This document shows, one piece after another, positions 12,567 through 56,832 of a DNA stretch of 56,832 bases. Source of the DNA: a virus; the IMG/VR virus record IMGVR_UViG_3300008259_004318, positions 1 to 56,832 of that record; one strand, given 5' to 3'. Under the pieces are notes generated by a model. The model was given only the letters and a program-made list of their open reading frames with translations. It ran no database searches and had not been told where the DNA came from. Position numbers and translations under genes: made by a program. The first letter of the stretch is position 1. Each line of letters begins with the position of its first letter.

Positions 12567-14876
12567 ATGAAAAAAAGATTTATTATATCTGAGTCTGAAA
12601 AAAAGACAATACTTGGTTTGTATAAGTTAATAAAAGAAGACACCAATACTTTTACTTATGATGTTGGGGATTATTTTAAAGTTAATAGTTACTCAAGTGA
12701 CATGGTTTACGAAATCACTAAAAAAGACGAAACTAAAGACAAATATATTTTAAATAAATATACAAAAGAAAGTGATGGTAAAATAGAAAAAATACAACAA
12801 GAACTGTCCAGAGATGGTTTTGAGGATCTCGTTACTGACGAAGTACTCATAAAAATGAAAGATAAAACGGAATTTGATGACTGGTATAATAACAAAACCA
12901 TTAATATTAAAAAAGTTGTAAGTACATCTAATGATGTAAAAATTGGTGATGCTTATAAAAACGCTAAGGATTATGGTCAACATTACAAAATTTTATCTTT
13001 AGATGAGACCACAAAAGACTATAAAGTTAATTTTTCAGGTTATGATGGTGGAGGTAATTTTGATACTACGGAAATACAATTATCACCTGATTGGTTTGAA
13101 AAAAACTTAAAATCTAATGAGATTATAAAAATTACTGAAGAAGAATATAATAGTTTTATTGAAAAACATAAGTACGATAGTATTGGTTGTGGTTATGATA
13201 AGACTAAAGGAACTATTTTAGGAGATGTTACAGAAATACCAAGAAATGGAATTGCTAAATTTGAAGGAACAATAAACGGTAAAGAAGTTTCAATAAATGG
13301 TTGTTTTAACAAAGGAAGTGCTATTTTAACTTACGACGAAGGTGAAACAGGATCGAGAGGAAATTTTAAAGGACATTATTATTCTAACGACACCACAGAA
13401 CCATTTTCTTTTAGTGGTAATTCTGGATTTTCTAATAATTTTTTAGCAGGTACTTTAGATAATGATAATGAAACAGATATTGAAGAATATAGAGGTAATT
13501 TTCATACAAGAACATGGACTTATAGTGGGTATTTTACAAAAGAAGGAAAAATCGGAGAGTCGAATCCTGAAATTTTAATCCCTGATAGTGGATCATTTAA
13601 GATTAATAAAACACCAACAATTTTATTTGCTTTAGGTGATTATTATTATGGAGAATTTAAAGATTCTAAAATTGACGGAAAAGGTGTTTATTATTTTGCA
13701 GATAATGGACTAAAATTACAAGGAGAGTTTAAAACAGTAGAGGAGGAAGGTGGCGTTTCATATTCATGTAAGTTAACTTCAGGAGAAGATATTCCTAATA
13801 TATTTGAATACAAAGAAAGGTATGATTTAGAAAAAAATAAGAAAAAAGAAGATAAAAGTTTTGGAGTTTTAAAAAAAGGAAAACTTAAAGGAACGACTTT
13901 TTTTGAAACTACTATAAAAAATACTGAAACTAAGGAAGAAAAAAAATTAAACGGAATATTACCTTATGTTAACATAAAAGTTCAAAACAAAAGGTACAAA
14001 GACATTATATTTGAAATAAAAAGTGATGAAAATGGGAATTTTGAATTTGAAGATTTGCCTTTTGGTGTGTATAAAATTCTTGCTGCTTACGATAAAGGTA
14101 ACGGGTTAGGTTTTGTATTACCAAGTCAGGGAATTTTCAAAAAAAATGAAGTTACTTTTGATGTTGATGGGAAAAGAAAAAATTTAACCTTATCACCAAC
14201 AAGAGGGACAAAAAAAATAGATAACCAAGAAGCAACCGAAATCCCTGAGTTTTTTAAAAACATAAATTCAAAAAATTATGTAGAACAAAGATTAAATCTT
14301 GAGTATTCTAAATATGAATATGAAAAATATTTAAAATCATCTAAACAAGAAATTGAGGACTATACAGATAAAAAAACTTTACAATTTTGTAAAAAAGAAA
14401 CGACATTATATGCTAAAATGGTTAGAGATCTATATAATGGAGTAATTACAAAAGAAATGGTAAAGTCCCCACAAAACCTACAACCAACAAAAGACTTTTT
14501 AAAAAGTTGTTATATGAGATATAAAAATGATTCTAAATTTTTTAATTATAAAAAGAATGAAGACTTAGTTTTATTAATGAATCCTGGTAATGATTTGTAT
14601 GGTTTTAAGATTGTTTTAGAACATAAAGATATTTATAGAAAAAATACAGACATGAGTATTACTAACTCAATAAGAAAAGTCATTAAAGAACACAGTCAAG
14701 TTAAAAAAGATTCTTTAATTGAAAATGAAATAATAAGAAATAGAATAAATTTTGTTATTAGAAATTCTAATAATCAAAATGTTAGAAAAAAATTAATAGA
14801 AGAATCAAAAAAATTAATTCACAACGGTTATAATGAAAAATTTGTAAAAAGTTTATTGAAAAAATTATTAAATTAA
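12567..14876 (+). CDS. Large tagged protein with MORN-like and CNA-B-like regions
   Basis: A 769-residue protein. Residues 1-24 (SESEKKTILGLYKLIKE) form a tag like that of the OmpA-like protein at 36593. Between about 225 and 395 there are repeated G-x-(F/Y)-x-G stretches (GNFKGHYY, EYRGNFHTRTWTYSGYF, YYYGEFKDSKIDGKGVYYF) typical of MORN repeats, which form elongated beta-hairpins. A CNA-B/carboxypeptidase-regulatory fold at about 460-530 has the usual DENGNFEFEDLPFGVY loop. The C-terminal 200 residues are basic and helical. It is the last gene before a strong hairpin terminator. TATTTAT lies 5 bases before the ATG. The function is unknown; it probably binds a surface or another virion protein. 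Confidence 0.6.
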   Translation: MKKRFIISESEKKTILGLYKLIKEDTNTFTYDVGDYFKVNSYSSDMVYEITKKDETKDKYILNKYTKESDGKIEKIQQELSRDGFEDLVTDEVLIKMKDKTEFDDWYNNKTINIKKVVSTSNDVKIGDAYKNAKDYGQHYKILSLDETTKDYKVNFSGYDGGGNFDTTEIQLSPDWFEKNLKSNEIIKITEEEYNSFIEKHKYDSIGCGYDKTKGTILGDVTEIPRNGIAKFEGTINGKEVSINGCFNKGSAILTYDEGETGSRGNFKGHYYSNDTTEPFSFSGNSGFSNNFLAGTLDNDNETDIEEYRGNFHTRTWTYSGYFTKEGKIGESNPEILIPDSGSFKINKTPTILFALGDYYYGEFKDSKIDGKGVYYFADNGLKLQGEFKTVEEEGGVSYSCKLTSGEDIPNIFEYKERYDLEKNKKKEDKSFGVLKKGKLKGTTFFETTIKNTETKEEKKLNGILPYVNIKVQNKRYKDIIFEIKSDENGNFEFEDLPFGVYKILAAYDKGNGLGFVLPSQGIFKKNEVTFDVDGKRKNLTLSPTRGTKKIDNQEATEIPEFFKNINSKNYVEQRLNLEYSKYEYEKYLKSSKQEIEDYTDKKTLQFCKKETTLYAKMVRDLYNGVITKEMVKSPQNLQPTKDFLKSCYMRYKNDSKFFNYKKNEDLVLLMNPGNDLYGFKIVLEHKDIYRKNTDMSITNSIRKVIKEHSQVKKDSLIENEIIRNRINFVIRNSNNQNVRKKLIEESKKLIHNGYNEKFVKSLLKKLLN

Positions 14877-22185: not shown

Positions 22186-25100
22186 ATGGCGAATAAAAAA
22201 ATCTCCGAATTACCATATATAAATGGCGGTCAAATCTCAGGAAACACTCTTGTTCCTTTGGTTACGTATTTTAGTGCTGCGACAGGTGACACTGTCCATA
22301 CATACATATCCGATTTTCAAGGGTATGTTTTAAGTGGTCAAACAATTACTGGTGGAACTTATAATTCTACATCAGGAAATATCACATTTTTTAATAATAG
22401 TGGAGGAACATTTATTGTTTCAGGTATAACAACAACAGGTTCTAGTGGGACTTCAGGGTCTTCTGGAACTAGTGGTATAAATGGAACATCAGGAACTTCA
22501 GGTGTTGATGGGACTAGCGGAATAGACGGGACTTCAGGTGTGAATGGCACATCAGGAATTAACGGTACTTCAGGTATAGATGGAACAAGTGGAATAAATG
22601 GTACTTCAGGTACTAGTGGTGTAAGCGGTATTGACGGAACATCAGGAACTTCAGGTTTAGATGGTACTTCAGGTACTAGCGGAATTGATGGTACTAGTGG
22701 TACATCTGGCGTAGACGGAACATCAGGAACTAGTGGAATAGACGGTACAAGTGGTTCTTCAGGTACGAGCGGAACTAGTGGAATAGATGGTACAAGTGGC
22801 AGTTCAGGTACATCTGGTACTAGCGGATTAGATGGAACATCGGGTACTAGCGGAATTAATGGTACATCAGGTACTAGTGGGACTTCAGGATTATCAGGAA
22901 CAAGCGGGACTTCAGGTATTAATGGAACTTCAGGAACCAGCGGAATAAATGGTACATCAGGTATTGATGGTACAAATGGTACATCAGGAACTAGCGGAAT
23001 TGATGGAACAAGTGGTTCGTCAGGAACTAGCGGAATTGATGGAACATCAGGATTAGATGGTACTAGTGGGACTTCCGGTATAAGTGGTACATCAGGATCT
23101 AGTGGTACATCAGGATCTAGTGGTACTTCAGGTATAAGCGGAATTTTAAGTGGACAAACATTAGGTGTAGGATTACCAATATTTAATTCAGGAACAACCG
23201 ATACCTTATTTTTTAATTCAATTACAGGAGATAGTTTAAATAAAATTACAACAACAACTAACAACGATACAATCGAAATTGGTATTAATGAACAAAATTT
23301 AACTCTTTGGGATTTAGTCGTTCAAGGTAATAGATTATTAAGTGGTAATGTTTCTTATATTAGTGGATTAACATTTAGTGTAAGTCCTTTAGAATATTTA
23401 ATTAATGGTACAATATACGATATAACTTCGGCAACTACAGTTACATTAAATAGTGGTGACTCTACCTATGATAGAATTGATGTAATTTATGCCGATATTA
23501 GTGGTAATACAGGTGTTTTAGAAGGGACTCCTTCCGAAAACCCTGAAAAACCTTTGGTGGATGGGGATATCCAGGTTGAGGTCACATTCGTTTTGGTTCC
23601 TGCTAATTCAACAACTGCAGATATAACGTCATTTATAATTTATAATGAAAATTTAGGATCACCAACAGAATGGACATTTGGTTCAGTAGGTCTACAACCG
23701 ACAAGAATTATTGGTTCATCTACAGGACAAACCTATAGTGGTTCTACATCCATTAGAGTGAGTGGGGTTACTGGGGTATTTACAACTTCATTTAGGTTGA
23801 CAGGATCCACAACACTAGATACGAATCAATACGCAACTTTACAATTTGCCATGAGAAATTTATCGGCAAATACGACAACAAGTCAAATAAGAATACGGTT
23901 TTTAAATACTGGTGGCACACAAAACGGTAATGCGGTTTTAATGAATGCTGCGGGGTCTTCAGGGTTTGTTCAGTATAGTAGCACAAACACGTCATCTTGG
24001 CAATTAATATCAATTCCATTATGGAGATTTTATTTAACAAATACAAATGTTCAGGTTGTTGAATTTTCATTTTATCCTGTTGGTGGCGGAGCTCAAGCAA
24101 GATATTATTTTGACTTATTAGAGTTTGTTGAAGGTACCGCATCTTCACCACCATCAAACAGTTGGACAACAATAAAAGGTGACGGCGCAACGACTATAAC
24201 GGCACCTAATCCAAACGCAACACTTACAATTTCAGGTGGAACAAATATCGGTTCATTTATATCAGGAACATCTACAGTTGTTTTAAACTTGGATAATAAT
24301 ATAACTTTAGGTAGTGTTTCTGCAACAACAATAACAGCAAACACTTTAAATGTTAGATCTATTGGTTCAGGAACATCTATAACTAATTTAGGTATAGATG
24401 TTAATGGAAATATTGTTTCAGGATCAACAGGTACGAGTGGTGGCGGTTCAGGTACTTCGGGTACTAGTGGTATCAACGGAACATCAGGTACTAGTGGAAT
24501 AAATGGAACTAGTGGTACGTCAGGAATAGATGGTACTAGCGGTACTTCTGGTATCAACGGAACATCAGGTACTAGTGGAACTTCAGGCATCAACGGCACA
24601 TCAGGTACTAGCGGAATATCTGGCACATCAGGTACAAGCGGAATTGATGGGACAAGCGGTACAAGCGGAATTTCGGGTACATCAGGTACTAGTGGTTTAT
24701 CAGGTACTAGTGGTATTGATGGGACAAGCGGCACATCAGGAATAAATGGTACTAGTGGTATTGATGGTACCTCTGGAACAAGTGGTTCTTCAGGTACGTC
24801 AGGAACTTCAGGTACGTCAGGAATAAGTGGTACATCAGGTACATCAGGTATTAATGGTACTTCGGGTACTAGCGGAATTAATGGAACAAGTGGTGTCAAC
24901 GGTACATCAGGTACTAGCGGTTCTTCAGGGACAAGCGGAACATCAGGTTCTTCCGGCACAAGTGGTATTAACGGACTTAACGGTATATCAAGTGGTTTAG
25001 TTTACTACTACGATGGTAGTGGAACAACACAAACAGTTCCAATTGCGTCCTTAGTTACAGATAATTTATTATTATCACCAAACATAGGAACACAAACCTT

Positions 25101-27936
25101 AATAACAACATCTAGTTTTAATGAAGCTGACGGAGATACAAAAATAATTCAATATATAACACCCGCAGTATCTTTACAAACAACAACAATTTTACCTGGT
25201 ATATGGATAAATAACTTAATTGCACAAAAAACTTCAGGTACAGGAAATCTTGTTTATTGGATTGTTATTGATGAGATTGGTTCTGACGGCACAACGTTTA
25301 TAGGTAATATTGCAACAGGTAATGTTGGTTCAGGAACATTAATATCAACAACCCAATCAAATTACATATATAACCAATTTGTCTCATCATATCTTTTAGC
25401 GTCTGTAAATTCAAGAATTAGAGTTAGTATATACGCTAACACAACAGGTACCAATAACGCATTCAATATTGAAATGAGAGATTCTACCCTTTCTAATATT
25501 GTTACAACATTGGCGGCTAACCTTTCGGGAACATCAGGTATAGATGGAACTAGTGGTACTTCTGGTATCAACGGAACATCGGGAACTAGTGGCACATCAG
25601 GAATAAACGGGACTTCTGGAATTAACGGTACTTCAGGTACTAGTGGAACAAGTGGATCTTCAGGAACTAGTGGTACTTCGGGTATTTCAGGAACGAGCGG
25701 TACGTCTGGGGTTAATGGTACATCAGGTACGAGCGGTACGTCTGGGGTTAATGGAACTTCGGGAACAAGCGGAACATCAGGTATCAACGGTACATCGGGT
25801 ACTAGCGGATCAAGTGGCACATCAGGAACAAGTGGTATTAACGGAACTTCAGGAACAAGCGGAAGTAGTGGAACTTCAGGTAGTTCAGGAACTAGCGGGT
25901 CAAGTGGTACATCAGGAACAAGCGGATCAAGTGGCACATCAGGAACTTCAGGTTCTTCAGGAACTTCGGGTACGAGCGGTATTAGTGGTACATCAGGAAC
26001 GAGTGGTACGTCAGGTACTAGCGGTACAAGTGGAATAAACGGTACATCAGGAACTAGTGGTACAAGCGGTGTAAATGGAACTAGCGGCACTTCTGGAACT
26101 AGCGGTTCTAGCGGCACATCAGGAACTTCAGGAACATCGGGTACTAGTGGTGTTAATGGATTAAATGGTACGAATGGAACATCAGGAACTAGTGGAATTA
26201 ATGGTACGAGCGGAACAAGTGGATCTTCAGGCACTTCAGGTACTAGTGGTGTTAACGGAACGAGTGGTACATCAGGAACGAGCGGTATAAATGGTACAAA
26301 CGGGACTTCAGGTACTAGTGGTGTTAACGGAACGAGTGGTACATCAGGGACTAGCGGAGTAAATGGGACTTCGGGAACGAGCGGCACATCGGGAAGTTCG
26401 GGTACGAGTGGTACTTCAGGGACTAGTGGTAAATCAGGAACTAGCGGCACATCAGGAGTTAACGGCACAAGTGGTACTTCAGGGACTAGTGGTAAATCAG
26501 GTAATGATGGGTCAAATTCATCAAGATACCTATATAAAAATAATGAATCGGCGCCTACAGATCCAGGGTCGACTCAATTTGTTGCTGACACTAACACTAT
26601 CGGTAGTGTGACATTGTTCTCAATCAGTAAAGATGATATAAATAATGTCGACTTATACAGTTGGTGGCAAGTTTTAGTTGACCAATTTAACGTTTCAGGT
26701 AGACCCGCATTTTTACAAATTATAGAAGTTAACGACAATAGTAAATTTGGGTATTTTAATATTGATAATATTACCGATCAGACAACTTATTTTGATATAA
26801 ATGTTACGTATTTGGCGGGTAATACTACTTTAGGTAATAATGTTGTGTTTACCATAACTTGGAATACTGACGGAGCAAATGGATCTAACGGTATTAATGG
26901 ATCTTCAGGAACATCAGGTACTAGTGGAACTTCAGGTTCTTCGGGAACAAGTGGTAGTAGCGGAACATCAGGAACGAGCGGGTCAAGTGGTACTAGCGGA
27001 ACATCAGGATCTTCAGGTACTAGTGGAGTTGCAATTATATTAAATAACACAAATAATAATGTATTAACGGCAACAGGGACTTCGGGAGTCATAACAGGAG
27101 AACCTAATTTTACTTTTGATGGTACAACCGCAGTAATTACAGGTAATTTAACTGTTAGTGGAAATTCAGGAATAAATTGGTTTAGTGCAAATACAACGAC
27201 AGACGCCTTTAGAATAACACAAGCAGGTACAGGAAACGCATTTGTTGTTGAGGACTCAACAAATCCCGATTCAACACCTTTTGTTATAAATAATTCAGGA
27301 AGTGTCGGTATTGGTACATCTAATCCACAATTTCTACTTCAGGCATTTAGTGGAAATAGTACTTTCTATTATGATCCGACTAGTGTTGGCGGTAGATTCA
27401 ATATTAGTGGTAGTACCGGAATACCAAGAATTGACGTAGCGATTGGACCTTACCTTACAAAAGTGGCTACAGGTGGTAGTGTAGGAATGAGGACTTGGGA
27501 CGATGCCACCAATGGTGGTTATGGTAAAGTTGGGGACATGTTCATATATGCCGGTAATGAAACAAACGGAATAGTCATAATTAATCAAGGTCCCGGTACT
27601 GGCACCGACGATTACATTAGATTTTATGCTGGACGAGACACCACGAATACGTCAGATATACATATCCAAGGAACTGGAACCACAAGAGGTTTTGTTGGTA
27701 TTGGAACAGAATCACCAAGACAAAGATTAGACGTAAATGGAAGTACAATTGTTTCAAATACTTTAAGTGCCTCTACCATGGTTATAACTACACAACCAAC
27801 CAGCGGTTACACATCGACTCAAATATTAATGAGAAATTCAACAACGGGAACTGTTGAAATTACAGATAGTACGTCACCGGCTATTTATAATTATGGAATG
27901 ACTTACGCGATGACAAACTTTAACTATTTAACATAA
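22186..27936 (+). CDS. Giant collagen-like tail fibre protein
   Basis: A 1916-residue fibre built from a short N-terminal domain (1-83), four collagen-like blocks of Gly-X-Y triplets (about 84-320, 748-930, 1114-1443 and 1563-1615), globular beta domains between them, and a C-terminal part with NTNPDS-type and GIGT.SP modules shared with the fibre at 17478. The triplets are almost all GTS, GSS, GIN, GID, GVN, GLD or GIS, so a large share of exposed positions are Thr or Ser. Proline is nearly absent, so triple-helix stability must come from elsewhere. The gene lies three fibre or adhesin genes upstream of a multi-domain glycosyltransferase, so these hydroxyls are plausible sugar acceptors. It is probably a long host-contact fibre. 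Confidence 0.8.
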   Translation: MANKKISELPYINGGQISGNTLVPLVTYFSAATGDTVHTYISDFQGYVLSGQTITGGTYNSTSGNITFFNNSGGTFIVSGITTTGSSGTSGSSGTSGINGTSGTSGVDGTSGIDGTSGVNGTSGINGTSGIDGTSGINGTSGTSGVSGIDGTSGTSGLDGTSGTSGIDGTSGTSGVDGTSGTSGIDGTSGSSGTSGTSGIDGTSGSSGTSGTSGLDGTSGTSGINGTSGTSGTSGLSGTSGTSGINGTSGTSGINGTSGIDGTNGTSGTSGIDGTSGSSGTSGIDGTSGLDGTSGTSGISGTSGSSGTSGSSGTSGISGILSGQTLGVGLPIFNSGTTDTLFFNSITGDSLNKITTTTNNDTIEIGINEQNLTLWDLVVQGNRLLSGNVSYISGLTFSVSPLEYLINGTIYDITSATTVTLNSGDSTYDRIDVIYADISGNTGVLEGTPSENPEKPLVDGDIQVEVTFVLVPANSTTADITSFIIYNENLGSPTEWTFGSVGLQPTRIIGSSTGQTYSGSTSIRVSGVTGVFTTSFRLTGSTTLDTNQYATLQFAMRNLSANTTTSQIRIRFLNTGGTQNGNAVLMNAAGSSGFVQYSSTNTSSWQLISIPLWRFYLTNTNVQVVEFSFYPVGGGAQARYYFDLLEFVEGTASSPPSNSWTTIKGDGATTITAPNPNATLTISGGTNIGSFISGTSTVVLNLDNNITLGSVSATTITANTLNVRSIGSGTSITNLGIDVNGNIVSGSTGTSGGGSGTSGTSGINGTSGTSGINGTSGTSGIDGTSGTSGINGTSGTSGTSGINGTSGTSGISGTSGTSGIDGTSGTSGISGTSGTSGLSGTSGIDGTSGTSGINGTSGIDGTSGTSGSSGTSGTSGTSGISGTSGTSGINGTSGTSGINGTSGVNGTSGTSGSSGTSGTSGSSGTSGINGLNGISSGLVYYYDGSGTTQTVPIASLVTDNLLLSPNIGTQTLITTSSFNEADGDTKIIQYITPAVSLQTTTILPGIWINNLIAQKTSGTGNLVYWIVIDEIGSDGTTFIGNIATGNVGSGTLISTTQSNYIYNQFVSSYLLASVNSRIRVSIYANTTGTNNAFNIEMRDSTLSNIVTTLAANLSGTSGIDGTSGTSGINGTSGTSGTSGINGTSGINGTSGTSGTSGSSGTSGTSGISGTSGTSGVNGTSGTSGTSGVNGTSGTSGTSGINGTSGTSGSSGTSGTSGINGTSGTSGSSGTSGSSGTSGSSGTSGTSGSSGTSGTSGSSGTSGTSGISGTSGTSGTSGTSGTSGINGTSGTSGTSGVNGTSGTSGTSGSSGTSGTSGTSGTSGVNGLNGTNGTSGTSGINGTSGTSGSSGTSGTSGVNGTSGTSGTSGINGTNGTSGTSGVNGTSGTSGTSGVNGTSGTSGTSGSSGTSGTSGTSGKSGTSGTSGVNGTSGTSGTSGKSGNDGSNSSRYLYKNNESAPTDPGSTQFVADTNTIGSVTLFSISKDDINNVDLYSWWQVLVDQFNVSGRPAFLQIIEVNDNSKFGYFNIDNITDQTTYFDINVTYLAGNTTLGNNVVFTITWNTDGANGSNGINGSSGTSGTSGTSGSSGTSGSSGTSGTSGSSGTSGTSGSSGTSGVAIILNNTNNNVLTATGTSGVITGEPNFTFDGTTAVITGNLTVSGNSGINWFSANTTTDAFRITQAGTGNAFVVEDSTNPDSTPFVINNSGSVGIGTSNPQFLLQAFSGNSTFYYDPTSVGGRFNISGSTGIPRIDVAIGPYLTKVATGGSVGMRTWDDATNGGYGKVGDMFIYAGNETNGIVIINQGPGTGTDDYIRFYAGRDTTNTSDIHIQGTGTTRGFVGIGTESPRQRLDVNGSTIVSNTLSASTMVITTQPTSGYTSTQILMRNSTTGTVEITDSTSPAIYNYGMTYAMTNFNYLT
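22438..23148 (+). repeat. Collagen-like Gly-X-Y block 1
   Basis: About 236 residues of Gly-X-Y triplets, mostly GTS with GID, GIN and GLD inserts. At the DNA level the 9-base units are heavily varied by synonymous codons, so the repeat is stronger in protein than in DNA. Confidence 0.85.
24429..24975 (+). repeat. Collagen-like Gly-X-Y block 2
   Basis: About 180 residues of GTS/GIN/GID/GIS triplets after a beta domain of about 430 residues. Serine codons tend to alternate between TCA and AGT/AGC along the run. Confidence 0.85.
25527..26515 (+). repeat. Collagen-like Gly-X-Y block 3, the longest
   Basis: About 330 residues, mostly GTS and GSS with GVN and GIN. It includes two GKS triplets near its end, rare positive charges in an otherwise neutral stalk. 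Confidence 0.85.
26875..27030 (+). repeat. Collagen-like Gly-X-Y block 4, short
   Basis: About 52 residues of GSN/GIN/GSS/GTS triplets joining a small beta domain to the C-terminal receptor-proximal part of the fibre. Confidence 0.8.
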
Positions 27937-36592: not shown

Positions 36593-38122
36593 ATGAAAAA
36601 TATTTTATTAAGTCTTAATGATGGTGAAAAGAAACGAATACTTGAAATGCATTATAACGCGGCAGGTAAAACATTAATATCTAATTATAATGAAAAAAGT
36701 GGTAGATTTAGTATAAATGAAGATAATTTGAATTTACCTGAAGTAAGATTGAATTTTCCTGCTGGAGAATATAGACCAACAGAAGCAATTAAAGTAAAAT
36801 TAAAGGGAGATTTGGCATCTTTAGTTAATTTTATAAAAAATCCCGACCCTGGTTTTAAAAATCATTACATTCAAATTAATGTTGAAGCAAGTGCTGACGC
36901 ATCTAGACTTAGCCAAAGCGCATTACAATTATGTACTGATTTAGGTATAACATCAAGTATGTCGGCTCAAGAACAAAACGAAGTACTATCAAGGGCCAGA
37001 ATGCAAACTGCTGTTGATTTAATAAAGAAAATTTTAACAGAAGATTTGGGTATCACCCAAGACGAGTTAGATAAGTCAGTGATAATTAATGGAACAAATA
37101 AGGTTAGTACCTCTCAAAACAATCCAAATGATAGATATGTAAAGGCCACTTTTTCTAAAGGAAAAGAAAAAGAAGATGATGTACCACCACCAATTACAGG
37201 AGATACGCCACCTGTAATATTAAAATGTAATTTACCTAGTACAAAGTACGAAGGTTATGAAAATAGAAAAACTCCTTATGTGGGGTATCAATCAACATTC
37301 TCAACACCAATAGGGGTTGGAGATAAAATGACCGTATATTTTGATCCGTGGGATTATCCAGATGCTTTTTATATTAAAGTAGGTGATGGAGGTGAAGGAA
37401 GAGAAGGATTTAGTGGGTTTATTGGTAAAACTTCAATAAATAAACCAGGACAATCAAACTATAGAAATTTTGTAAGAGAACTAGCAAATTTAAAAACTAA
37501 AGGAATTAAAACAGATATTGATAACTTTATTAAATCTGTTGGTGGGACATTAACAACTAAAGATGAAGATTATGTGCCGACTGGTAATTTACCTGAACTT
37601 AAAAAGAACATTAAAGATACTGCGATTTCTTTTTTAAAGAATGAAAAATGGGCACCATTTTTAACTGCGATGGTTGGAATTAATGATAAAACAAAATGGG
37701 ATAAAACATCGTTACCTGGTTTTTACGTCGATATGAATTATTTTGAAAAAAGTAACTGGAAAGTAATTAGAAAACTAATTAGAAATGGGGGATTTGGAAT
37801 ACCAAAAGAATGGGATAAAAAGAAAAAAAATGCTTTCTTAAATACGATAAAAAATAGGGAAACAGGGTTGGATGGTGTAAAATTAGAACAAATGAAAATT
37901 ACTCCAGATGTGTTAGTTGAATTGGTTAAATCTGGTACAATATATTCGTTAGTTTTACTTAGATCAAAATTTGATATAGTTGAAACAGGGAAAAGAAATG
38001 CGGAATTAAAGTGGCAATTTACTTTTGATAAACAAACAGAAAACGAAACTATAAAACTTTATGTCTTCTCCCCATTGAAAGGTACTGTATTTTATATGTC
38101 CACAAAATGTGAAGTATCATAA
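36593..38122 (+). CDS. Tagged protein with OmpA-like domain
   Basis: A 509-residue protein, start chosen at MKNILLSLNDGEKKRILEMHY because the upstream in-frame ATG lies in the divergent gene. The N-terminus resembles that of the protein at 12567 (EKKTILGLYK versus EKKRILEMHY). Residues about 55-185 follow the OmpA C-terminal pattern (IQINVEASAD..., LSRARMQTAVDLI, VIINGTNKVS), a fold that binds peptidoglycan. The remainder has a Pro-rich linker, a beta domain (MTVYFDPWDYPDAFYIKVGDG), a helical part and a beta end. A packaged protein able to hold the cell wall would fit a role during DNA entry. No signal peptide is present. Confidence 0.6.
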   Translation: MKNILLSLNDGEKKRILEMHYNAAGKTLISNYNEKSGRFSINEDNLNLPEVRLNFPAGEYRPTEAIKVKLKGDLASLVNFIKNPDPGFKNHYIQINVEASADASRLSQSALQLCTDLGITSSMSAQEQNEVLSRARMQTAVDLIKKILTEDLGITQDELDKSVIINGTNKVSTSQNNPNDRYVKATFSKGKEKEDDVPPPITGDTPPVILKCNLPSTKYEGYENRKTPYVGYQSTFSTPIGVGDKMTVYFDPWDYPDAFYIKVGDGGEGREGFSGFIGKTSINKPGQSNYRNFVRELANLKTKGIKTDIDNFIKSVGGTLTTKDEDYVPTGNLPELKKNIKDTAISFLKNEKWAPFLTAMVGINDKTKWDKTSLPGFYVDMNYFEKSNWKVIRKLIRNGGFGIPKEWDKKKKNAFLNTIKNRETGLDGVKLEQMKITPDVLVELVKSGTIYSLVLLRSKFDIVETGKRNAELKWQFTFDKQTENETIKLYVFSPLKGTVFYMSTKCEVS

Positions 38123-38124
38123 AA

Positions 38125-38649
38125 CTAATTGTTTGATAAAACACATTTTTCTAATTCAGGAACGTTTTTAATTGATGTTATAATAACATCATACGTTAAA
38201 TAACTTTTTTGATAGTCACTTGTTTTATTCGTTACACAAATACCCAATATAATTGGCTTTGAGTATTTATTGTTGTCGAAACTAAACCATTTAACGTGTG
38301 TATAATTGTATTTTGAAATTAAAATTTTAAAAACTGAATCCACAAGATTAATAACGTTTTTTTCTGATTTACTAATATTTAATGTAAATTTTTGATAATC
38401 GTATGATGCCCATTCATTACTATACCCCGTTTCAAAAATAATTTTGTCTTTATCGATTTTATCATACAATTTATAAAATATTGAACTAATAAAATTAGAC
38501 TCGTAAGTAGTGTCTATTTTGCCTAAGTTTTTATCTAAACGAATTTGATTTATTGAACTTAATATTGATTCTTTAATCAAATACTCATTTGATTGTGAAA
38601 AAACAAAATTTAAAAATAAACAAGAAATTAAGGTTAATAACGTTTTCAT
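38125..38649 (-). CDS. Exported protein of unknown function, possibly CAP-like
   Basis: A 174-residue protein with a clear signal peptide (MKTLLTLISCLFLNFVFSQS, cleavage probably after FS-Q as is common in Flavobacteria). The mature start (ILSSINQIRLDKNLGKI) resembles the first helix of CAP/SCP domains, but the family's later His and Glu motifs are not evident, so this is only a hint. The rest is alpha/beta with many Lys, Tyr and Ser. It is followed after three bases by the end of the convergent OmpA-like gene and preceded by a perfect host-type promoter. The gene is likely expressed in the host periplasm or outside. Confidence 0.6.
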   Translation of the reverse strand: MKTLLTLISCLFLNFVFSQSNEYLIKESILSSINQIRLDKNLGKIDTTYESNFISSIFYKLYDKIDKDKIIFETGYSNEWASYDYQKFTLNISKSEKNVINLVDSVFKILISKYNYTHVKWFSFDNNKYSKPIILGICVTNKTSDYQKSYLTYDVIITSIKNVPELEKCVLSNN

Positions 38650-46650: not shown

Positions 46651-48462
46651 ATGGCAGAACAAAAATATACAGTTTGGCAAAGGTTAGGTAGGGTTTTCGG
46701 ACCTAACGCAACAATGGACCAGCAAGCACCGGTTTTTAAATTCGATAAAAAACAATTATTAAAAACCGCAGATAAAAATGAATACGAGAAAGAAAAACTT
46801 GAAGCCCAACAAACAATGTATGTTGGTAAACAATGGCAAAGAGTTGAGACAAATCTATACCAACAGGCGGTTTATTATGAACCAACAAGAATGGCATCAT
46901 ATTATGATTATGAGTCTATGGAATACACACCTGAAATTTCAGCCGCTTTAGATATATACGCCGAAGAATCAACAACACCCGATCAAGACGGTTTAATTTT
47001 GAGGGTTTATTCTGAATCTAAAAGAATAAAACAAGTATTAACCGATCTATTCACAAACAAACTTGACATAAACACTAATTTACCTATGTGGACAAGAAAC
47101 ACATGTAAATTTGGTGATAATTTTATTTATTTAAAATTAGATCCCGAAAATGGGGTTGTTGGGTGTCAACAATTACCTAACATACAAATAGAAAGATTAG
47201 AAAAGGGTATGAGATTCCAACCTGACAAATACTCTCAAGAAATGGAAAACGATGCTTTGAAGTTTGTGTGGAAAGAAAAAAACATGGAGTTTAATACTTG
47301 GGAAGTTGCTCACTTTAGAATATTGGGAGACGATAGAAAACTACCTTATGGTACTTCTATGTTGGAAAAGGCTAGACGTATTTGGAAGCAATTATTACTT
47401 TCAGAAGATGCGATGTTGGTATATAGGGTTTCAAGGGCACCTGAAAGAAGAGTATTCAAAATTTTTGTAGGTAACATGGACGATAAAGATGTCGATGCAT
47501 ATGTTCAAAAAGTCGCAAATAAATTTAAAAGGGATCAAATTGCGGACCCACAAACAGGGAATGTAGATTTAAGATATAATCAATTGGCGGTTGATCAAGA
47601 TTATTTTATTCCTGTTAGAGATGCCGCTGCGGGTAATCCAATTGACACATTACCGGCAGGTCAAAACTTGGCGGAAATTGCGGACATTGAGTATATCCAA
47701 AAGAAATTAGTTACTGCACTTAGAATACCAAAGGCGTATTTAGGATTTGAAGAGGCTGTTGGTGACGGTAAAAATTTATCATTATTAGATATTAGATTTG
47801 CAAGAACTATTAATAGAATTCAAAAATCTATGATTGCGGAATTAAACAAAATTGCAATCATACATTTATTTTTATTGGGGTTTGAAGATGAGCTTACAAA
47901 CTTTACGTTGAGTCTAAATAACCCATCAAAACAAGGTGAACTTTTATCTATTGAAATTTGGAAAGAAAAAATAACTCTTTATAAAGATGCGGTTGCTGAA
48001 GTTGCTAATTCATTAGCACCGACATCAGCATCCTGGGCTAAAAAACACATTTTAGGGTTTTCTGATGAAGAAATAAGGTTAGATATCCAACAACAAAGAA
48101 TAGAAAGGGCAGTTTATGGTGAGTTAGCAAAAACACCTGAAGTTATTACAAAAACAGGAATATTCGATAATATTGACCAATTATATACTAAAAAAGATGC
48201 GGGAGCGGCTCCTGGTGGGGCACCTGCACCTGGTGGAGCACCTGCACCTGGTGGAGAACCTGCACCTGGTGGGGCACCACCTGCACCTGAACCACCAGCA
48301 CCTGGTGGAAGTGAGGTAACACCTGAAAGTTTTAAAAAAAATGATTTAAATTTAATATTAGAAGATAGTATTTTTTATGGTAAAACTTCATTAGATTTAT
48401 CAAAAGGAAGACTATCTTTAGATCAAGTAGACAAAAAATTGAAAGATTTAATTGATAAGTGA
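46651..48462 (+). CDS. Portal protein (gp20-like)
   Basis: A 603-residue portal, the dodecameric ring at the head vertex through which DNA passes. Typical T4-type segments include YDYESMEYTPEISAALDIYAEE (near 92), TRNTCKFGDNFIYLKLD (near 148), and RVSRAPERRVFKIFVGNM (near 260). A long helix (ISALDIRFARTINRIQ-type; here LSLLDIRFARTINRIQ) lies near 370. Beyond the usual end there is a Pro/Ala/Gly linker (GGAPAPGGAPAPGGEPAPGG, near 520-550) and a short C-terminal helix region ending LKDLIDK, not expected in T4 gp20. That tail may reach into the core during assembly. Confidence 0.92.
   Translation: MAEQKYTVWQRLGRVFGPNATMDQQAPVFKFDKKQLLKTADKNEYEKEKLEAQQTMYVGKQWQRVETNLYQQAVYYEPTRMASYYDYESMEYTPEISAALDIYAEESTTPDQDGLILRVYSESKRIKQVLTDLFTNKLDINTNLPMWTRNTCKFGDNFIYLKLDPENGVVGCQQLPNIQIERLEKGMRFQPDKYSQEMENDALKFVWKEKNMEFNTWEVAHFRILGDDRKLPYGTSMLEKARRIWKQLLLSEDAMLVYRVSRAPERRVFKIFVGNMDDKDVDAYVQKVANKFKRDQIADPQTGNVDLRYNQLAVDQDYFIPVRDAAAGNPIDTLPAGQNLAEIADIEYIQKKLVTALRIPKAYLGFEEAVGDGKNLSLLDIRFARTINRIQKSMIAELNKIAIIHLFLLGFEDELTNFTLSLNNPSKQGELLSIEIWKEKITLYKDAVAEVANSLAPTSASWAKKHILGFSDEEIRLDIQQQRIERAVYGELAKTPEVITKTGIFDNIDQLYTKKDAGAAPGGAPAPGGAPAPGGEPAPGGAPPAPEPPAPGGSEVTPESFKKNDLNLILEDSIFYGKTSLDLSKGRLSLDQVDKKLKDLIDK
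48210..48279 (+). repeat. 18-bp coding repeat in the portal linker
   Basis: Repeats of GCACCTGCACCTGGTGGA encode a PAPGGA linker between the conserved portal body and its extra C-terminal segment. Copy number could vary without frame loss. Confidence 0.65.
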
Positions 48463-50229: not shown

Positions 50230-50940
50230 ATGAAAATATTAGGACCAAACGACACAGGTAAAGGAATTTTAGTTGAGTGGGATGCGGGGACAATCAATCC
50301 CAATGAATTTAGGAATAGTCAAGTTATAAAAGAATCTTATGGTCAATTAGACCATTCTAAACCTTTTGTTTTTTATGCTACATTACAAAAATATGGAGTA
50401 CCAAATAGAAATGGTAGAATTTATCCTGAAAAAATATTAAAAAGAGAAGCCGACAGATATAAAGAAATGATTAATAAAGGTATGTCAATATCTGAACTTA
50501 ATCACCCCGAATCATCTCTTATTGATTTAGATAGGGTGGCTCACTTAATTACTGATGTGTGGTGGGAGGATAATGTATTGATGGGTAAGATTAAATTACT
50601 AACCACTCCAGGGTTTCATGAAAGAGGTATTGTTTCTTCTAAAGGCGATGTTGCTGCTAACATGATGAGACAGGGTGTTACAATGGGGGTTTCTTCAAGA
50701 GGTGTGGGTTCGTTAGTAAAAAAAGGAGAACAGAATGAAGTGCAAGAAGATTTTGAACTTATATGTTTTGATTTAGTTTCCTCACCTTCAACTCCAGGAG
50801 CATACCTTTATTTAAATAAAGAAGATAGGCCAAATTACGAAGAAAAACTAACGGAGAATGAAAATATAGAATCAAATTCTAATCCACTTAGTAAATCTAT
50901 TGACTTAATGAAAAGATTATCCGATTATTTGGATAAATAA
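50230..50940 (+). CDS. Prohead protease (gp21-like)
   Basis: A 236-residue serine protease of the T4 gp21 type, related in fold to herpesvirus assemblins. Signature segments are NRNGRIYP (near 59-66), the catalytic histidine in SELNHPES (H92), and the catalytic serine in MGVSSRGVGS (S155 or S156). FDLVSSPSTPGA follows near 188. In T4 the enzyme is packed in the prohead, activates itself and cleaves scaffold, capsid and internal proteins after (I/L)-x-E, then diffuses out. Many proteins in this window carry that motif near their N-termini, so its substrate list may be long. The C-terminal 35 residues are acidic and probably removed on activation. Confidence 0.9.
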   Translation: MKILGPNDTGKGILVEWDAGTINPNEFRNSQVIKESYGQLDHSKPFVFYATLQKYGVPNRNGRIYPEKILKREADRYKEMINKGMSISELNHPESSLIDLDRVAHLITDVWWEDNVLMGKIKLLTTPGFHERGIVSSKGDVAANMMRQGVTMGVSSRGVGSLVKKGEQNEVQEDFELICFDLVSSPSTPGAYLYLNKEDRPNYEEKLTENENIESNSNPLSKSIDLMKRLSDYLDK

Positions 50941-52809: not shown

Positions 52810-54684
52810 ATGGGAGCATTATTAGAATCAGGTCTTGTTGGTAATATCGGGTTAAAACACCTTAAAGTTATCAAAGAAGATACAATTAACAAATGGGATA
52901 AATTAGGATTCCTAGACGGTCTTAAAGGACACGTTAAAGAGAACATGGCACAATTATATGAAAACCAAGCGTCTCACCTAATAAACGAAGCAGCATCTAC
53001 TGATAGTTCAGGTTCATTCGAAACTGTAGTATTTCCTATCGTTAGACGCGTATTCTCTAAATTGTTGGCTAACGATTTAGTTTCTGTACAAGCAATGAAC
53101 TTACCTATCGGTAAATTGTTCTACTTTGTACCAAGAATCCAAGGTTATTCTTCTTCAACCGATCAAACTGCGGCTAATGCTTACGGTGGTAACGCATATC
53201 ACTATTCACCTGTTGGATCTCCATCTAATACAGGTACTACAGGTGTTGGTGCTGGTTACCCACCTAACGCAAACGCGTTTTCTAAAAGTCTTTATGATTT
53301 ATTTTATGAAGGTGCTGAAGGTCAATTAAGCCCTCCAGGATTATTTGATTACTCAAAAGGAAAATGGTCAGCGGTTACTTCAACTGCAACCGTTAAAGTT
53401 TGGAGTAATGGTTCATTAACTAGTGCAACAAACCAATACCCAAGTGGAACTAACGTAAGAAAAGTTATCTTGGAACTTGGTGGATTTACTCAAGCAGGTA
53501 CAGGAAAATTAATTGGTCCTGATGGTAGTGAAGTTGATTCTGAAACTTTCCTTTCTGATTTAAGAGTTTTCTCTAACGTTGCAAAGGCTTCTTCAGTTCT
53601 ATCAGCATCTACACCATGTAATGTTGTTTATAACTCAGACGGTAATCCTAATTCATTATTGTTTAGAGTTGTTACTCAACAATATGGTAAAGGTATTGTA
53701 ACACCTACATCTACTCAAACACCAACATCATGGGCATCAACAGGAAATGGTGGTTCATATGATAATATCTGTTCTCAAGATGGTAAAATCTTGTTAGAAG
53801 TGGATCTTTCTTGTCCTGTATGTGCTGATTGTGATGCTACATCATTAGACGGATACACAGGAACTACTTTAACAGGTGGTTTAAGTGGTACTCCATTCTC
53901 AGCAGTTTGGAGAAGATACGCTAACTTAGAATTTGAAGACCAAATTGGTGAGGTTTCTTTTGATTTAGAATCAGTAACTGTTTCTGTAACTGAAAGAAAA
54001 CTAAGAGCACAATGGTCACCTGAATTGGCACAAGACGTTTCTGCATTCCATAACATCGACGCTGAGGCTGAATTAACAGCATTATTGTCTGAGCAAGTGG
54101 CGGCAGAAATCGATAGAGAAATCTTGAGAGACCTTAGAAAGGGAGCGGCTTGGAACCTAAGATGGGATTACAACGGATGGAGAAGAATTTCTCAAACAAC
54201 ATCATACACTCAAAAAGATTGGAATCAAACTTTGATTACAGCAATCAACCAATTGTCAGCACAAATCCACAAATCTACTTTAAGAGGTGGTGCTAACTGG
54301 ATCGTTGTTTCTTCTGAAGTTTCTGCAATCTTTGATGACCTTGAGTACTTCCACGTATCTAACGCTTCTCCGGAGCAAGATCAGTACAACATGGGTATCG
54401 AAAGAGTTGGTACATTAGCAGGTCGTTACCAAGTGTATAGAGATCCATACTTCCCAGCTAACCAAATCCTTATCGGACACAAAGGTTCATCTTTGTTAGA
54501 CACAGGATATGTATATGCTCCGTATGTACCTCTACAATTAACACCTACAATGTATAACCCATTCAACTTTACACCGATCAAAGGTATAATGACGAGATAC
54601 GCTAAGAAAATGGTTAACAACCGTTTCTATGGTAGAGTTACAGTTGATGGAGTTAGAACATTCGACTTACAAGAATTGAGATAA
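52810..54684 (+). CDS. Major capsid protein (gp23-like)
   Basis: A 624-residue HK97-fold capsid protein of the T4 gp23 type. Residues 1-60 form a removable delta region ending SHLINE (E60), directly followed by AASTDSSGSFETVVFPIVRRVF, which matches the T4 arrangement where gp21 cuts after an L-T-E. Later signatures are VQAMNLPIGKLFYFVPRIQG (near 99), SFDLESVTVSVTERKLRAQWSPELAQDVSAFHNIDAEAEL (near 383), and VYAPYVPLQLTPTMYNPFNFTPIKGIMTRYAKKMVNNRFYG (near 570). A Ser/Thr-rich insertion with paired cysteines (PVCADCDA) lies near 337. Codon use is more GC-rich and uniform than in neighbours, as expected for the most highly expressed gene. A perfect terminator follows. Confidence 0.93.
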   Translation: MGALLESGLVGNIGLKHLKVIKEDTINKWDKLGFLDGLKGHVKENMAQLYENQASHLINEAASTDSSGSFETVVFPIVRRVFSKLLANDLVSVQAMNLPIGKLFYFVPRIQGYSSSTDQTAANAYGGNAYHYSPVGSPSNTGTTGVGAGYPPNANAFSKSLYDLFYEGAEGQLSPPGLFDYSKGKWSAVTSTATVKVWSNGSLTSATNQYPSGTNVRKVILELGGFTQAGTGKLIGPDGSEVDSETFLSDLRVFSNVAKASSVLSASTPCNVVYNSDGNPNSLLFRVVTQQYGKGIVTPTSTQTPTSWASTGNGGSYDNICSQDGKILLEVDLSCPVCADCDATSLDGYTGTTLTGGLSGTPFSAVWRRYANLEFEDQIGEVSFDLESVTVSVTERKLRAQWSPELAQDVSAFHNIDAEAELTALLSEQVAAEIDREILRDLRKGAAWNLRWDYNGWRRISQTTSYTQKDWNQTLITAINQLSAQIHKSTLRGGANWIVVSSEVSAIFDDLEYFHVSNASPEQDQYNMGIERVGTLAGRYQVYRDPYFPANQILIGHKGSSLLDTGYVYAPYVPLQLTPTMYNPFNFTPIKGIMTRYAKKMVNNRFYGRVTVDGVRTFDLQELR

Positions 54685-54704
54685 TCAATATCTTTAGAAT
54701 AAGG

Positions 54705-54736
54705 AAAAGGTCAGAGAAATCTGACCTTTTTTGTTT
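54705..54736 (+). terminator. Intrinsic terminator after the major capsid gene
   Basis: AAAAGGTCAG, loop AGAAAT, CTGACCTTTT and further T. This perfect 10-base-pair stem closes the capsid transcript. Confidence 0.88.
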
Positions 54737-54757
54737 TTATAAAAAATTAGTTTTTTT

Positions 54758-54775
54758 TACGTATAAGTGTACGTA
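54758..54775. promoter_or_regulatory. Paired TACGTA palindromes upstream of the subtilase gene
   Basis: TACGTA-TAAGTG-TACGTA: two copies of a 6-base palindrome with a 6-base spacer, 120 bases before the subtilase start. This is the form of a dimeric regulator site. No TATTTAT or clear TAnnTTTG promoter is seen in this gap. Confidence 0.35.
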
Positions 54776-54863
54776 TTTTCACACATACTATATTAGTACA
54801 CATGTCGTAAATTGACTGTTTATGGGGTACCAAAAAAGGGTTTTTCTTTATATATAGGACTAT

Positions 54864-54893
54864 CTATTGGTGTAAACAAAATAAAACCAATAG
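54864..54893 (+). promoter_or_regulatory. Inverted repeat ending 3 nt before the subtilase start codon
   Basis: CTATTGGT (54864-54871) and ACCAATAG (54886-54893) are exact inverted repeats with a 14-base loop. In RNA the 8-base-pair hairpin would end three bases before the ATG at 54897, covering the ribosome landing site. Confidence 0.45.
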
Positions 54894-54896
54894 AAA

Positions 54897-56351
54897 ATGA
54901 AAAACTTAAAAACAACAATCACAACACTTTTAATCAGTTTAGTAACTGTAATATCTTTCGGACAAAAAAGTTCAGTATGGGCTACCGTAGAAAATGTAGA
55001 ACAACTTCAAAAAAATCAACAATTTATTTCAATACTTACGGACTTACATACTGACTTAACATACTATAAAGCATTTGCATCTTCAAAACAAGAAAAATTA
55101 CAAAATGTATATGAATTTACTTGTGCTAATTGTGACGTAACCGATTTATACGTATCATTAAGTAGAGTTAGTGGATTAAAAGGTGTTGAGTATGGTCCTA
55201 CATATGAAACATTAGAAGTACCAAATGACTATAGTTTAGTTTCTACAACAAATTGGGCTTTAGATTTAATCGGGGCTGAAAACGCTTGGGTTTATACAAC
55301 AGGGGACTCAACAATAAACGTGGCGGTATCAGATCAAAACTTTTACACAAATCACGAAGAATTAACAGGTAAAATCAATTATTATGACAACACAAACACG
55401 GCAACAAAAACTCACGGTACGGCCGTGGCAACAATAGTTGCAGGAAACACAAATAATTCAGTAGGTCTTGCATCAATCGGTTATAACACAACACTTAACC
55501 TTTATAGAATGAACTATAATGATATGTTAATTGCTTCTTACAACGGTGCTAGAGTAATTAACTTATCTTGGGCATCAGGGTGTAATTATAACACATATGC
55601 TCAAATGGCGATAGATGAGGTTTATAATAACGGAACATTTATCGTTGCATCGGCAGGAAACGGAACAACATGTGGAAGTCCTAACGCATTAGTATACCCA
55701 GCATCTTACAATCACGTATTCGCAGTAACAAGTGTTGGTTCACAAGATAATATTGAAAAAACAATCGGTAATCCAAACACAAGACACCAAACAAATTCAA
55801 GTGTAGATATTTGTGCACCTGGTCACAACGTACCTTTAACAGCAGCACCAGGATGGTATTTGAATTCTTCAGGAACATCATTCGCAGCACCTTACGTTAC
55901 AGGAACTGTGGCTCTTATGTTATCTGTTAAACCTGATTTAACAAATCAAGAAATAGATTCAATTTTAAGATTAACGGCAACTAACATAGATATTTTAAAT
56001 CCAAACTATATTGGTAAAATAGGTTCAGGAAGATTAAACTCAGGATTGGCAGTTCAAACAGTATGGAATATGATTCAAGAAGTAGAAGACGGAAATAACG
56101 GTCATGGTAACGACGCTGACGGTGTAGATGGTTCTAACCCTGGACAAGGTGGAGGAAACAACGGTAATCAAGGTGGAAATGGAAATCACTTCGGGTGGGA
56201 TAACAAAGATAAAGTAACTTTAGGTGATGACTTATCAGATGTGACAGTAATTGATATAAATGGTAAAATAACAAACATAGAAAACGCATTACCTGGATTC
56301 TACTTTGTTGTTAGCAATAATTTAATAATCAAAAAAATATACAAAAATTAA
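54897..56351 (+). CDS. Secreted subtilase with T9SS-like C-terminal end
   Basis: A 484-residue S8 serine protease. Signal peptide MKNLKTTITTLLISLVTVISFGQ; an N-terminal region of about 100 residues that may be an inhibitor prodomain; catalytic Asp in NVAVSDQNF (near 142), His in THGTAVATIVAG (near 172) and Ser in SSGTSFAAPYVTGTVALM (near 327), all present. A Gly/Asn linker (near 400-435) is followed by a final 38 residues (VTVIDINGKITNIENALPGFYFVV...IIKKIYKN) that look like the last strands of a type A T9SS sorting domain, here shortened. The protein would be exported by the host and perhaps displayed or released outside. Such proteases are common in Flavobacteria, rare in phages. Possible roles are attacking surface proteins or matrix. 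Confidence 0.85.
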   Translation: MKNLKTTITTLLISLVTVISFGQKSSVWATVENVEQLQKNQQFISILTDLHTDLTYYKAFASSKQEKLQNVYEFTCANCDVTDLYVSLSRVSGLKGVEYGPTYETLEVPNDYSLVSTTNWALDLIGAENAWVYTTGDSTINVAVSDQNFYTNHEELTGKINYYDNTNTATKTHGTAVATIVAGNTNNSVGLASIGYNTTLNLYRMNYNDMLIASYNGARVINLSWASGCNYNTYAQMAIDEVYNNGTFIVASAGNGTTCGSPNALVYPASYNHVFAVTSVGSQDNIEKTIGNPNTRHQTNSSVDICAPGHNVPLTAAPGWYLNSSGTSFAAPYVTGTVALMLSVKPDLTNQEIDSILRLTATNIDILNPNYIGKIGSGRLNSGLAVQTVWNMIQEVEDGNNGHGNDADGVDGSNPGQGGGNNGNQGGNGNHFGWDNKDKVTLGDDLSDVTVIDINGKITNIENALPGFYFVVSNNLIIKKIYKN

Positions 56352-56352
56352 T

Positions 56353-56451
56353 ATGAAAAAGTTTTTAGATAATCTAAAATTGTTCTCTTTAGTCTTTATG
56401 ACCGTGTTTTCAATAACAACAGTATTCAAGATAATCATTATAGGAGTGTAA
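56353..56451 (+). CDS. 32-residue membrane micropeptide
   Basis: ATG 56353 to TAA 56449-56451, one base after the subtilase stop. It encodes a basic start (MKKFLDNLKL) and one hydrophobic helix (FSLVFMTVFSITTVFKIIIIGV). It could assist export of, or be co-expressed with, the subtilase. It is short and the region is AT-rich, so a chance frame cannot be excluded, but the immediate spacing and clean membrane pattern support a real peptide. Confidence 0.4.
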   Translation: MKKFLDNLKLFSLVFMTVFSITTVFKIIIIGV

Positions 56452-56511
56452 ATATAAAAGATTTCCCCACAAATATTCATTTACACATTAAAATGGTTGA
56501 CCAATAAGTAG

Positions 56512-56537
56512 TTCCCCTATATTTATTTATAGGGGAA
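56512..56537. terminator. Hairpin between the subtilase unit and the next exported gene
   Basis: TTCCCCTATA, a 6-base loop and TATAGGGGAA, a perfect 10-base-pair stem, followed by ATCTTATTTTT. It contains TATTTAT in the loop region, so it could be both terminator and promoter for the gene at 56563. Confidence 0.6.
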
Positions 56538-56562
56538 ATCTTATTTTTAAAAAAATACTTTA

Positions 56563-56832
56563 ATGAAAAAACTGTTTTTTATTCTAACACTTCTAATTTC
56601 TTTGGGGGTAAAATCACAATGTAATCAATATTTAATTTACGAAAGTTTTACAAGTACATTAACAACACAAGGAGGTACATGGGGTGTAAATTCCATACTT
56701 GCATCGACTTCACCAACTAGAACCGGTAATTATGCCGCAGGATTTAATGGTACCGGAGATTGGATTAGAACACCACAAATTGCAAATCCTGGGGTTCTTT
56801 CTTTTTGGTATAGAAGAAGTAGTAACTCAACT
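56563..56832 (+). CDS. N-terminal part of a second secreted protein (cut by window end)
   Basis: The first 90 residues are visible. A signal peptide (MKKLFFILTLLISLGVKSQ) is followed by a beta-rich domain (YLIYESFTSTLTTQGGTW, PTRTGNYAAGFNGTGDWIRTP, GVLSFWYRRSS). This start is typical of secreted Flavobacteriia proteins with a jelly-roll module, often ahead of nucleases or T9SS sorting domains. What follows is outside the window. Together with the subtilase it suggests a small module of exported host-like proteins next to the capsid gene. Confidence 0.65.
   Translation, partial: MKKLFFILTLLISLGVKSQCNQYLIYESFTSTLTTQGGTWGVNSILASTSPTRTGNYAAGFNGTGDWIRTPQIANPGVLSFWYRRSSNST

Follow-up and report, generated by a model that had tools for sequence, protein, structure and literature searches.

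The window analysed here, that is, the whole stretch of 56,832 bases, is an IMG/VR virus record that is classed as linear, and it is therefore probably a fragment. It carries T4-like head genes, and behind the capsid gene lie two adjacent genes with signal peptides, as a preliminary description of this DNA had reported; both were found as open reading frames (ORFs), at 54897-56351 and 56563-56832, their signal peptides being called by eye and with a simple home-made rule. The features of the region are as follows.

46651-48462: portal protein gp20, a T4-like head gene.
50230-50940: prohead protease, a T4-like head gene.
52810-54684, plus strand: major capsid protein gp23 (PF07068, E=1.8e-74), the upstream anchor of the island.
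54703-54732, plus strand: terminator-like hairpin with a T-run, 3' of gp23, which sets the subtilase apart from the capsid transcript.
54861-54874, plus strand: element TATCTATTGGTGTA, 22 nt 5' of the subtilase start codon, conserved in the alignment.
54897-56351, plus strand: S8 subtilase preproenzyme of 484 aa (PF00082), predicted cargo of the type IX secretion system (T9SS).
54897-54965, plus strand: predicted Sec signal peptide, residues 1-23 (sequence; home-made rule).
54966-55226, plus strand: N-terminal pro-domain, residues 24-110, boundaries approximate (AlphaFold2; aligns with bacterial homologues).
55227-56072, plus strand: catalytic S8 domain, residues 111-392 (PF00082, invariant columns, subtilisin structure matches).
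55332-55334, 55413-55415, 55659-55661 and 55878-55880: catalytic residues Asp146, His173, Asn255 and Ser328, respectively.
56208-56348, plus strand: short T9SS-type C-terminal signal, residues 438-484, 47 aa (homologue alignment, hhalign).
56353-56451, plus strand: 32-aa ORF in the interval that separates the exported genes, with a single membrane helix predicted.
56512-56537, plus strand: terminator-like hairpin separating the two exported genes.
56563-56832, plus strand: N-terminal 90 residues of the second exported protein, which has 663 aa in full; the ORF is open at its 3' end, where the contig cuts it.

In relatives, the exported genes are likewise preceded by copies of gp23 (74-100% identical), and the hairpin behind gp23 is kept while the letters of its stem vary. 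The element TATCTATTGGTGTA has a single exact full copy within the window; its exact core, TATCTATTGKT, precedes the subtilase in relatives as well as both cargo genes of contig L010, and we consider the element a candidate promoter. A simple sigma-70 promoter scan gave fewer hits than were obtained in shuffles. The 32-aa ORF is found at 73-100% identity in 8 other loci, which belong to close relatives.

The first of the two genes had been described as encoding a full S8 protease, and the intact ORF bears this out: its product matches Peptidase_S8 (PF00082) with E=3.1e-30 over the stretch 139-364, and the Asp/His/Ser triad (Asp146, His173 and Ser328) and the oxyanion Asn255 are invariant in an 11-row alignment of homologues (A1); the protein is a member of peptidase family S8, with a putative activity. 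Both exported N-termini look like classical Sec signal peptides, MKNLKTTITTLLISLVTVISFGQ followed by K in the subtilase and MKKLFFILTLLISLGVKSQ followed by C in the second protein. The pro-domain is alpha/beta in the AlphaFold2 model, with a pLDDT of about 64-83 over residues 21-100; this model, built from 11 sequences, has a mean pLDDT of 48 and a poorly modelled catalytic domain, and was used only for the pro-domain and the tail. The subtilase is present in 20 viral contigs at 67-100% identity, with gp23 upstream in 18 of them. Across the phage orthologues the catalytic domain is under purifying selection, with a dN/dS of about 0.07-0.12, and the enzyme has therefore been kept functional, whereas the C-terminal tail, with a dN/dS of about 0.1-0.6, evolves faster. 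Among the cultured phages of INPHARED, no record contains the subtilase at high identity (matches below 33%), and a match to phrog_3677, 'protease', adds no further information.

The closest bacterial subtilases, at 52-53% identity, are encoded by Lishizhenia MAGs. That the closest cellular genes are bacterial is what would be expected if bacterial and phage DNA had been joined in assembly, or if host DNA had contaminated the record, and the preliminary description had itself named such a chimera as the finding that would overturn its reading. However, the 1-kb stretch that joins gp23 to the subtilase is present in a further 16 contigs, at 100% in two and at 79-95% in fourteen more, which rules out an assembly chimera at 54700-54900, and the phage copies form a clade of their own; the probability that we leave to chimerism or contamination is negligible. 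In a maximum-likelihood tree, the Lishizhenia subtilases form the sister group of the window's clade (88/98 support), which is nested in bacterial sequences; a subtilase from another contig with gp23 (L104) branches elsewhere among the bacterial sequences, and those of L109 and L174 fall far outside. The tree suggests two or three captures from hosts, the number being unsure in view of unsettled deep nodes and of long branches that join one another. The Lishizhenia enzyme, of 721 aa (L022-L024), shares with the phage protein a signal peptide, a pro-domain, the S8 domain and a T9SS tail; it also contains SprB repeats and a complete PF18962 domain, and the phage enzyme shows instead a short tail and a Gly/Asn-rich linker. 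Lishizhenia belongs to the Crocinitomicaceae, and the subtilase and the tail both point to a member of this family or of related Flavobacteriales as the putative host, although a gene may have come from a donor other than the host of today.

The C-terminus of the subtilase had been read as a T9SS type A tail. The pattern itself is real: homologues with identities as low as about 47% retain motifs B (VTVIDINGK), D (LPGFYFVV) and E (KKIYKN), and G456 of motif B, G467-x-Y469 of motif D and K480 of motif E are invariant in the window and in its phage and bacterial homologues, including those that score above the cut-offs of the sorting-domain models. The tail is short, however, and in a profile search with the sorting models neither the window subtilase nor the full second protein matched TIGR04183 or PF18962. 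We therefore class the two proteins as putative T9SS cargo whose short signal has diverged, and not as formal members of these families. The same search, which the preliminary description had proposed with the type A model, did find matches among their relatives. A 683-aa subtilase behind gp23 in L104 scores 40.6 bits against TIGR04183 (cut-off 23) and 43.9 against PF18962 (cut-off 27), and a 275-aa protein of the same contig scores 51.4 bits against PF18962. L035, a virus record with no gp23 within the stretch examined, encodes a 519-aa subtilase with 26.1 bits against TIGR04183 (cut-off 23) and also a type B domain (TIGR04131, 41.8 bits, cut-off 35), and the 721-aa Lishizhenia relative carries its full PF18962 domain at 65.1 bits. 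Since the residues of the window tail are shared with these full-domain homologues, the tail corresponds to a type A domain minus its first half and the B-D spacer.

Profile-profile comparison agrees with this relation. In hhalign, the short subtilase tails matched a set of 40 bacterial CTDs with E=0.0011, and with E=2.3e-9 when divergent phage subtilases were added, the best of 23 unrelated phage C-termini giving E=0.047. With HMMs built from 40 Lishizhenia CTDs, the window tail alone did not rise clearly above other phage C-termini (E about 0.9-3.4, 1103 ORFs), and it is separated from other C-termini only by the profile-profile test and the homologue alignment.

The preliminary description had proposed to seek the C-terminus of the second protein beyond the window end, and it was recovered from contigs L021, in which the N-terminus is identical, and L004. 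The full protein has 663 aa, with CUB and GEVED domains, an FN3-like module and a short T9SS-type tail, KKIVKYINLMGQEVNPDYTKGLVIEIYDDGSIRKMIR. Its relatives retain about the last 150 residues while the remainder differs, the lengths being 860 or 883 aa depending on the start (L007), 583 aa on the opposite strand (L010), 592 aa (L013), 381 aa (L098) and 459 aa (L102); they are heads exchanged on a common putative export module. Among 40 genomes of Lishizhenia's family, a profile of this module and tail (A3) matched 35 at E<=0.001 and 16 at E<=1e-12, the weaker matches covering the module only and not the tail; it matched 21 of 150 genomes of Lishizhenia's order at E<=1e-11, and none of 118 genomes sampled across the phylum at E<=1e-12. 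The bacterial genes examined encode signal peptides where the start is present, end at the tail, and mostly lie amid ordinary chromosomal genes, and the translocon gene sprA is present in 39 of the 40 genomes of the family. From these family-wide matches, together with the signal peptides and SprA, it follows that flavobacteria probably use the second tail type on exported proteins of their own. In the search for cultured phages, the module was found only in uncultured phage genomes of 460-640 kb. A Foldseek search of the second protein against the PDB returned general CUB/FN3 multidomain matches (neuropilin, reelin) that carry no functional meaning. The gene directly 3' of the second exported gene (L021:2707-3171 and L004:13658-14119) encodes about 154 aa, and its product is predicted to have several membrane segments; it accompanies the second gene in many relatives at 31-100% identity, and has no family match over the cut-off.

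Both tails resemble a class of short signals that has been described in one bacterium. Three strands are predicted in the subtilase tail (450-453, 467-473 and 476-483, pLDDT about 53-67) and three in that of the second protein (629-633, 648-653 and 658-662, pLDDT about 70-85). With 47 residues in the subtilase tail, motifs B/D/E in alignments A1 and A3, and three strands predicted in both proteins at low to moderate confidence, the tails may be assigned to the short-CTD class, which in Prevotella intermedia comprises CTDs of 40-51 residues with C-terminal motifs B/D/E and three strands, whose cargo is cleaved and glycosylated (PMC11969387). That species is cited as the only one with both long and short CTDs (PMC11969387), whereas the short tails reported here, which are putative signals, occur in phages and Flavobacteriales. 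The last 22 residues of another CTD are enough for the secretion of GFP (PMC4804311). It counts against a use of the host T9SS here that T9SS signals can be species-specific, a chimaera with a Tannerella CTD not being properly secreted by P. gingivalis (PMC11285876).

These data bear on an alternative in which both proteins would be exported by Sec to the periplasm only, the shortened tail being a decayed remnant, and the protease would aid lysis or degrade envelope proteins from inside. Such decay would account for tails that score below the TIGR04183 and PF18962 thresholds and for a subtilase tail that is shorter and faster-evolving than the enzyme. It does not sit well with the retention of motifs B/D/E in distant homologues, with the analogous tail kept by the unrelated second protein and by bacterial exported proteins, with the full domains kept by phage relatives, or with the function of short CTDs in another bacterium (PMC11969387), and we regard it as improbable. 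The use of the host's T9SS, as proposed in the preliminary description, is well supported by homology: by the full type A domains and the one type B domain of the phage relatives, by the Lishizhenia homologue, a standard T9SS cargo, and by short tails of this kind on bacterial exported proteins in SprA-bearing genomes. Neither of the two results that the preliminary description had named as refuting its reading was obtained, as the family does give T9SS domain hits and the junction is no chimera. Our main reading, to which we assign a probability of roughly three in four, is that the subtilase and the second protein are phage-encoded cargo of the host type IX secretion system that would act outside the cell.

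The survey of related phages that had been called for was anchored on gp23 and took loci with at least 3 kb downstream, near-identical loci being merged by their first downstream ORFs only; an exported protein was counted if it had at least 100 aa, lay within 7 kb after gp23 and carried a signal peptide by the home-made rule. Such a protein follows gp23 in 20 of the 41 distinct loci, as against 0 of 288 upstream ORFs, and a T9SS-like tail is present in some, not all, of the 20. The site after gp23 is thus a hot-spot for predicted exported proteins. Its occupants include, besides the cargo described above, a second, distantly related subtilase family with another tail (L109 and L174; 26% identity), an exported M54-type metalloprotease (L105 and L107), SprB-repeat proteins, one of them with a full sorting domain, and binding proteins with swapped heads; in many relatives only non-enzymatic binding proteins are found. 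In Flavobacterium phage immuto, a cultured relative by gp23, no exported protein is encoded immediately behind the capsid gene. In a contig with both gp20 and gp23 (L146:12900-15602), a 900-aa exported protein encoded 3.7 kb after gp23 combines a CarboxypepD_reg-like domain with a TonB-dependent receptor plug (PF07715, 42.4 bits), and it is a predicted phage-borne outer-membrane receptor-like protein.

Several further observations concern such proteins in other records. Weak similarity (33%, E=4e-4) to wac of RB43/RB16, the neck-whisker fibritin of RB43-like phages, is seen in the SprB repeats of a phage-encoded T9SS cargo (L104:12198-13025). Three consecutive ORFs of L035 (8144-10804), of which the last has the type B domain, have the appearance of fragments of a single exported protein, possibly split by frameshifts or assembly indels. 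In uncultured phage genomes of 635-642 kb, a 1670-aa exported protein is matched by the T9SS type B model (TIGR04131, 50.1 bits; L202, LR756502:3316-8328, genome of 642 kb), and another large exported protein has a short tail (L200, LR745206:2691-4369).

In the mechanism that we propose, the genes would be expressed from their own promoter during infection. The subtilase would be made as a preproenzyme and cross the inner membrane by Sec, and the host T9SS (SprA/PorV) would then carry it across the outer membrane by means of its short C-terminal signal of 47 residues, a descendant of a complete type A domain; the second protein would follow by its own short tail. Outside, the protease may act on the surface or the surroundings of the infected cell, while the second protein may coat the cell surface. 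Most likely, then, the infected cell displays or releases the cargo via the T9SS and its surface is altered.

As to the purpose, the diversity of products encoded at this single exchangeable site, among them binding proteins, proteases and a receptor, fits a remodelling of the infected cell's surface. Adhesins of the gliding machinery depend on the T9SS. Components of that machinery are considered likely receptors for flavobacterial phages (PMC7345892), and a surface protease is, on these two grounds, a plausible receptor remover. Our first choice, held tentatively and with low confidence, is superinfection exclusion or receptor removal, by which competing phages or the released progeny would no longer adsorb. 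Second comes release and dispersal, in which the T9SS-exported protease would set progeny free by loosening aggregates, biofilm or gliding adhesins; the enzyme class, the bacterial homologues, which are extracellular-type subtilases with adhesive repeats, and the metalloprotease at the same site in two contigs all fit this purpose, but it leaves unexplained the many relatives with only non-enzymatic binding proteins there, and we consider it possible but rather unlikely. Acquisition from host-type extracellular proteases would also agree with an auxiliary enzyme that is exported by the T9SS and feeds amino acids to the infected cell. A product released outside a soon-lysing cell would, however, be a public good, and exchangeable binding heads and the SprB-repeat and TonB-receptor-like cargo at the site would remain without a role, so that nutrient scavenging appears improbable as well. 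Extending the preferred reading, surface change, it is possible, though doubtful, that a large group of T4-like Bacteroidota phages has a dedicated cassette site behind gp23, all of whose exchangeable products are delivered by the T9SS (through type A, type B or short signals) and give the cell a phage-specified outer surface: proteases would strip host adhesins or receptors, binding proteins would replace them, even an outer-membrane receptor would be supplied, and competing phages would contest this surface.

A works-like comparison, and no more than that, can be drawn with Llp of phage T5, a superinfection exclusion lipoprotein that blocks FhuA: it too is an exported phage protein that alters the receptor state of the infected cell, but it is not homologous, is a lipoprotein and neither T9SS cargo nor a protease, and works by another mechanism. 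The usual view is that, before lysis, phages act within the cell. If our main reading is true, infected Bacteroidota would be 'virocells' with a changed secretome, whose surface is programmed by the phage via the host type IX system, and this would bear on phage competition, biofilms and the breakdown of organic matter in aquatic systems. The results also suggest that short T9SS signals, described as a peculiarity of a single Prevotella species, are present in Flavobacteriales and in the phages of these bacteria, and, since standard models miss such signals, that T9SS cargo is under-counted in both.

Phage-encoded T9SS cargo as such is already known from two precedents. The Cryophage was described as the single reported case, for which hijacked secretion and superinfection exclusion were hypothesised (2020, PMC7468147). 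As here, the genes of a Bacteroidota phage carry T9SS type A sorting domains and vary between phage variants; its 76-kb genome, however, encodes an endoglucanase, a GH39 protein and a PA14 protein (PMC7468147), whereas the present phage is T4-like (gp20, gp21, gp23), encodes an S8 protease and binding proteins with short tails, and has a site after gp23 that recurs across many relatives. In crAss-BACON cluster 2 phages, T9SS-tagged proteins also lie near head genes, but these phages form another group, and the parts of that report available to us mention neither a protease, nor short tails, nor a survey of the site (PMC6949934). What is provisionally new here, the literature covered being thin on subscription papers and preprints, is that the phages are T4-like, that a protease is among the cargo, that short signals are present in phages as well as in Flavobacteriales, that the site behind gp23 recurs with exchanged heads, and that several kinds of signal occur.

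Some minor observations on the window remain. The best annotated match of its gp23, at 43% identity, is PP395634 (Microcystis phage Mel-JY01), which is assigned to a cyanobacterium, in contrast with the Bacteroidota hosts indicated by the other evidence; that host assignment may deserve a check. A 174-aa ORF on the minus strand (38125-38649), distant from the gp23 site, has a signal-peptide-like start, MKTLLTLISCLFLNFVFSQ, and is without a T9SS-like tail. The ORF at 22186-27936 (1916 aa) contains very long runs of SGTSG/INGTSG repeats, where the local G+C reaches 48%, well above the rest of the window. Finally, many otherwise unrelated ORFs of the window (1513-2061, 2050-2658, 3119-3682, 5824-6339, 6645-6983, 6980-8926, 8948-12550, 12567-14876 and 36593-38122) have in common a short N-terminal peptide (MKKRFIISESEKKTILGLYKLIKED, MKKINEDIIRIKNLMDLKEN, MKNILLSLNDGEKKRILEMHY), which is also found in L146 and, as a variant of the MKIKKTYKEFIKES type, in L035. 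These peptides resemble the capsid-targeting propeptides that are cut by the T4 prohead protease, and one idea is that the ORFs bearing them encode internal proteins that are packaged or injected.
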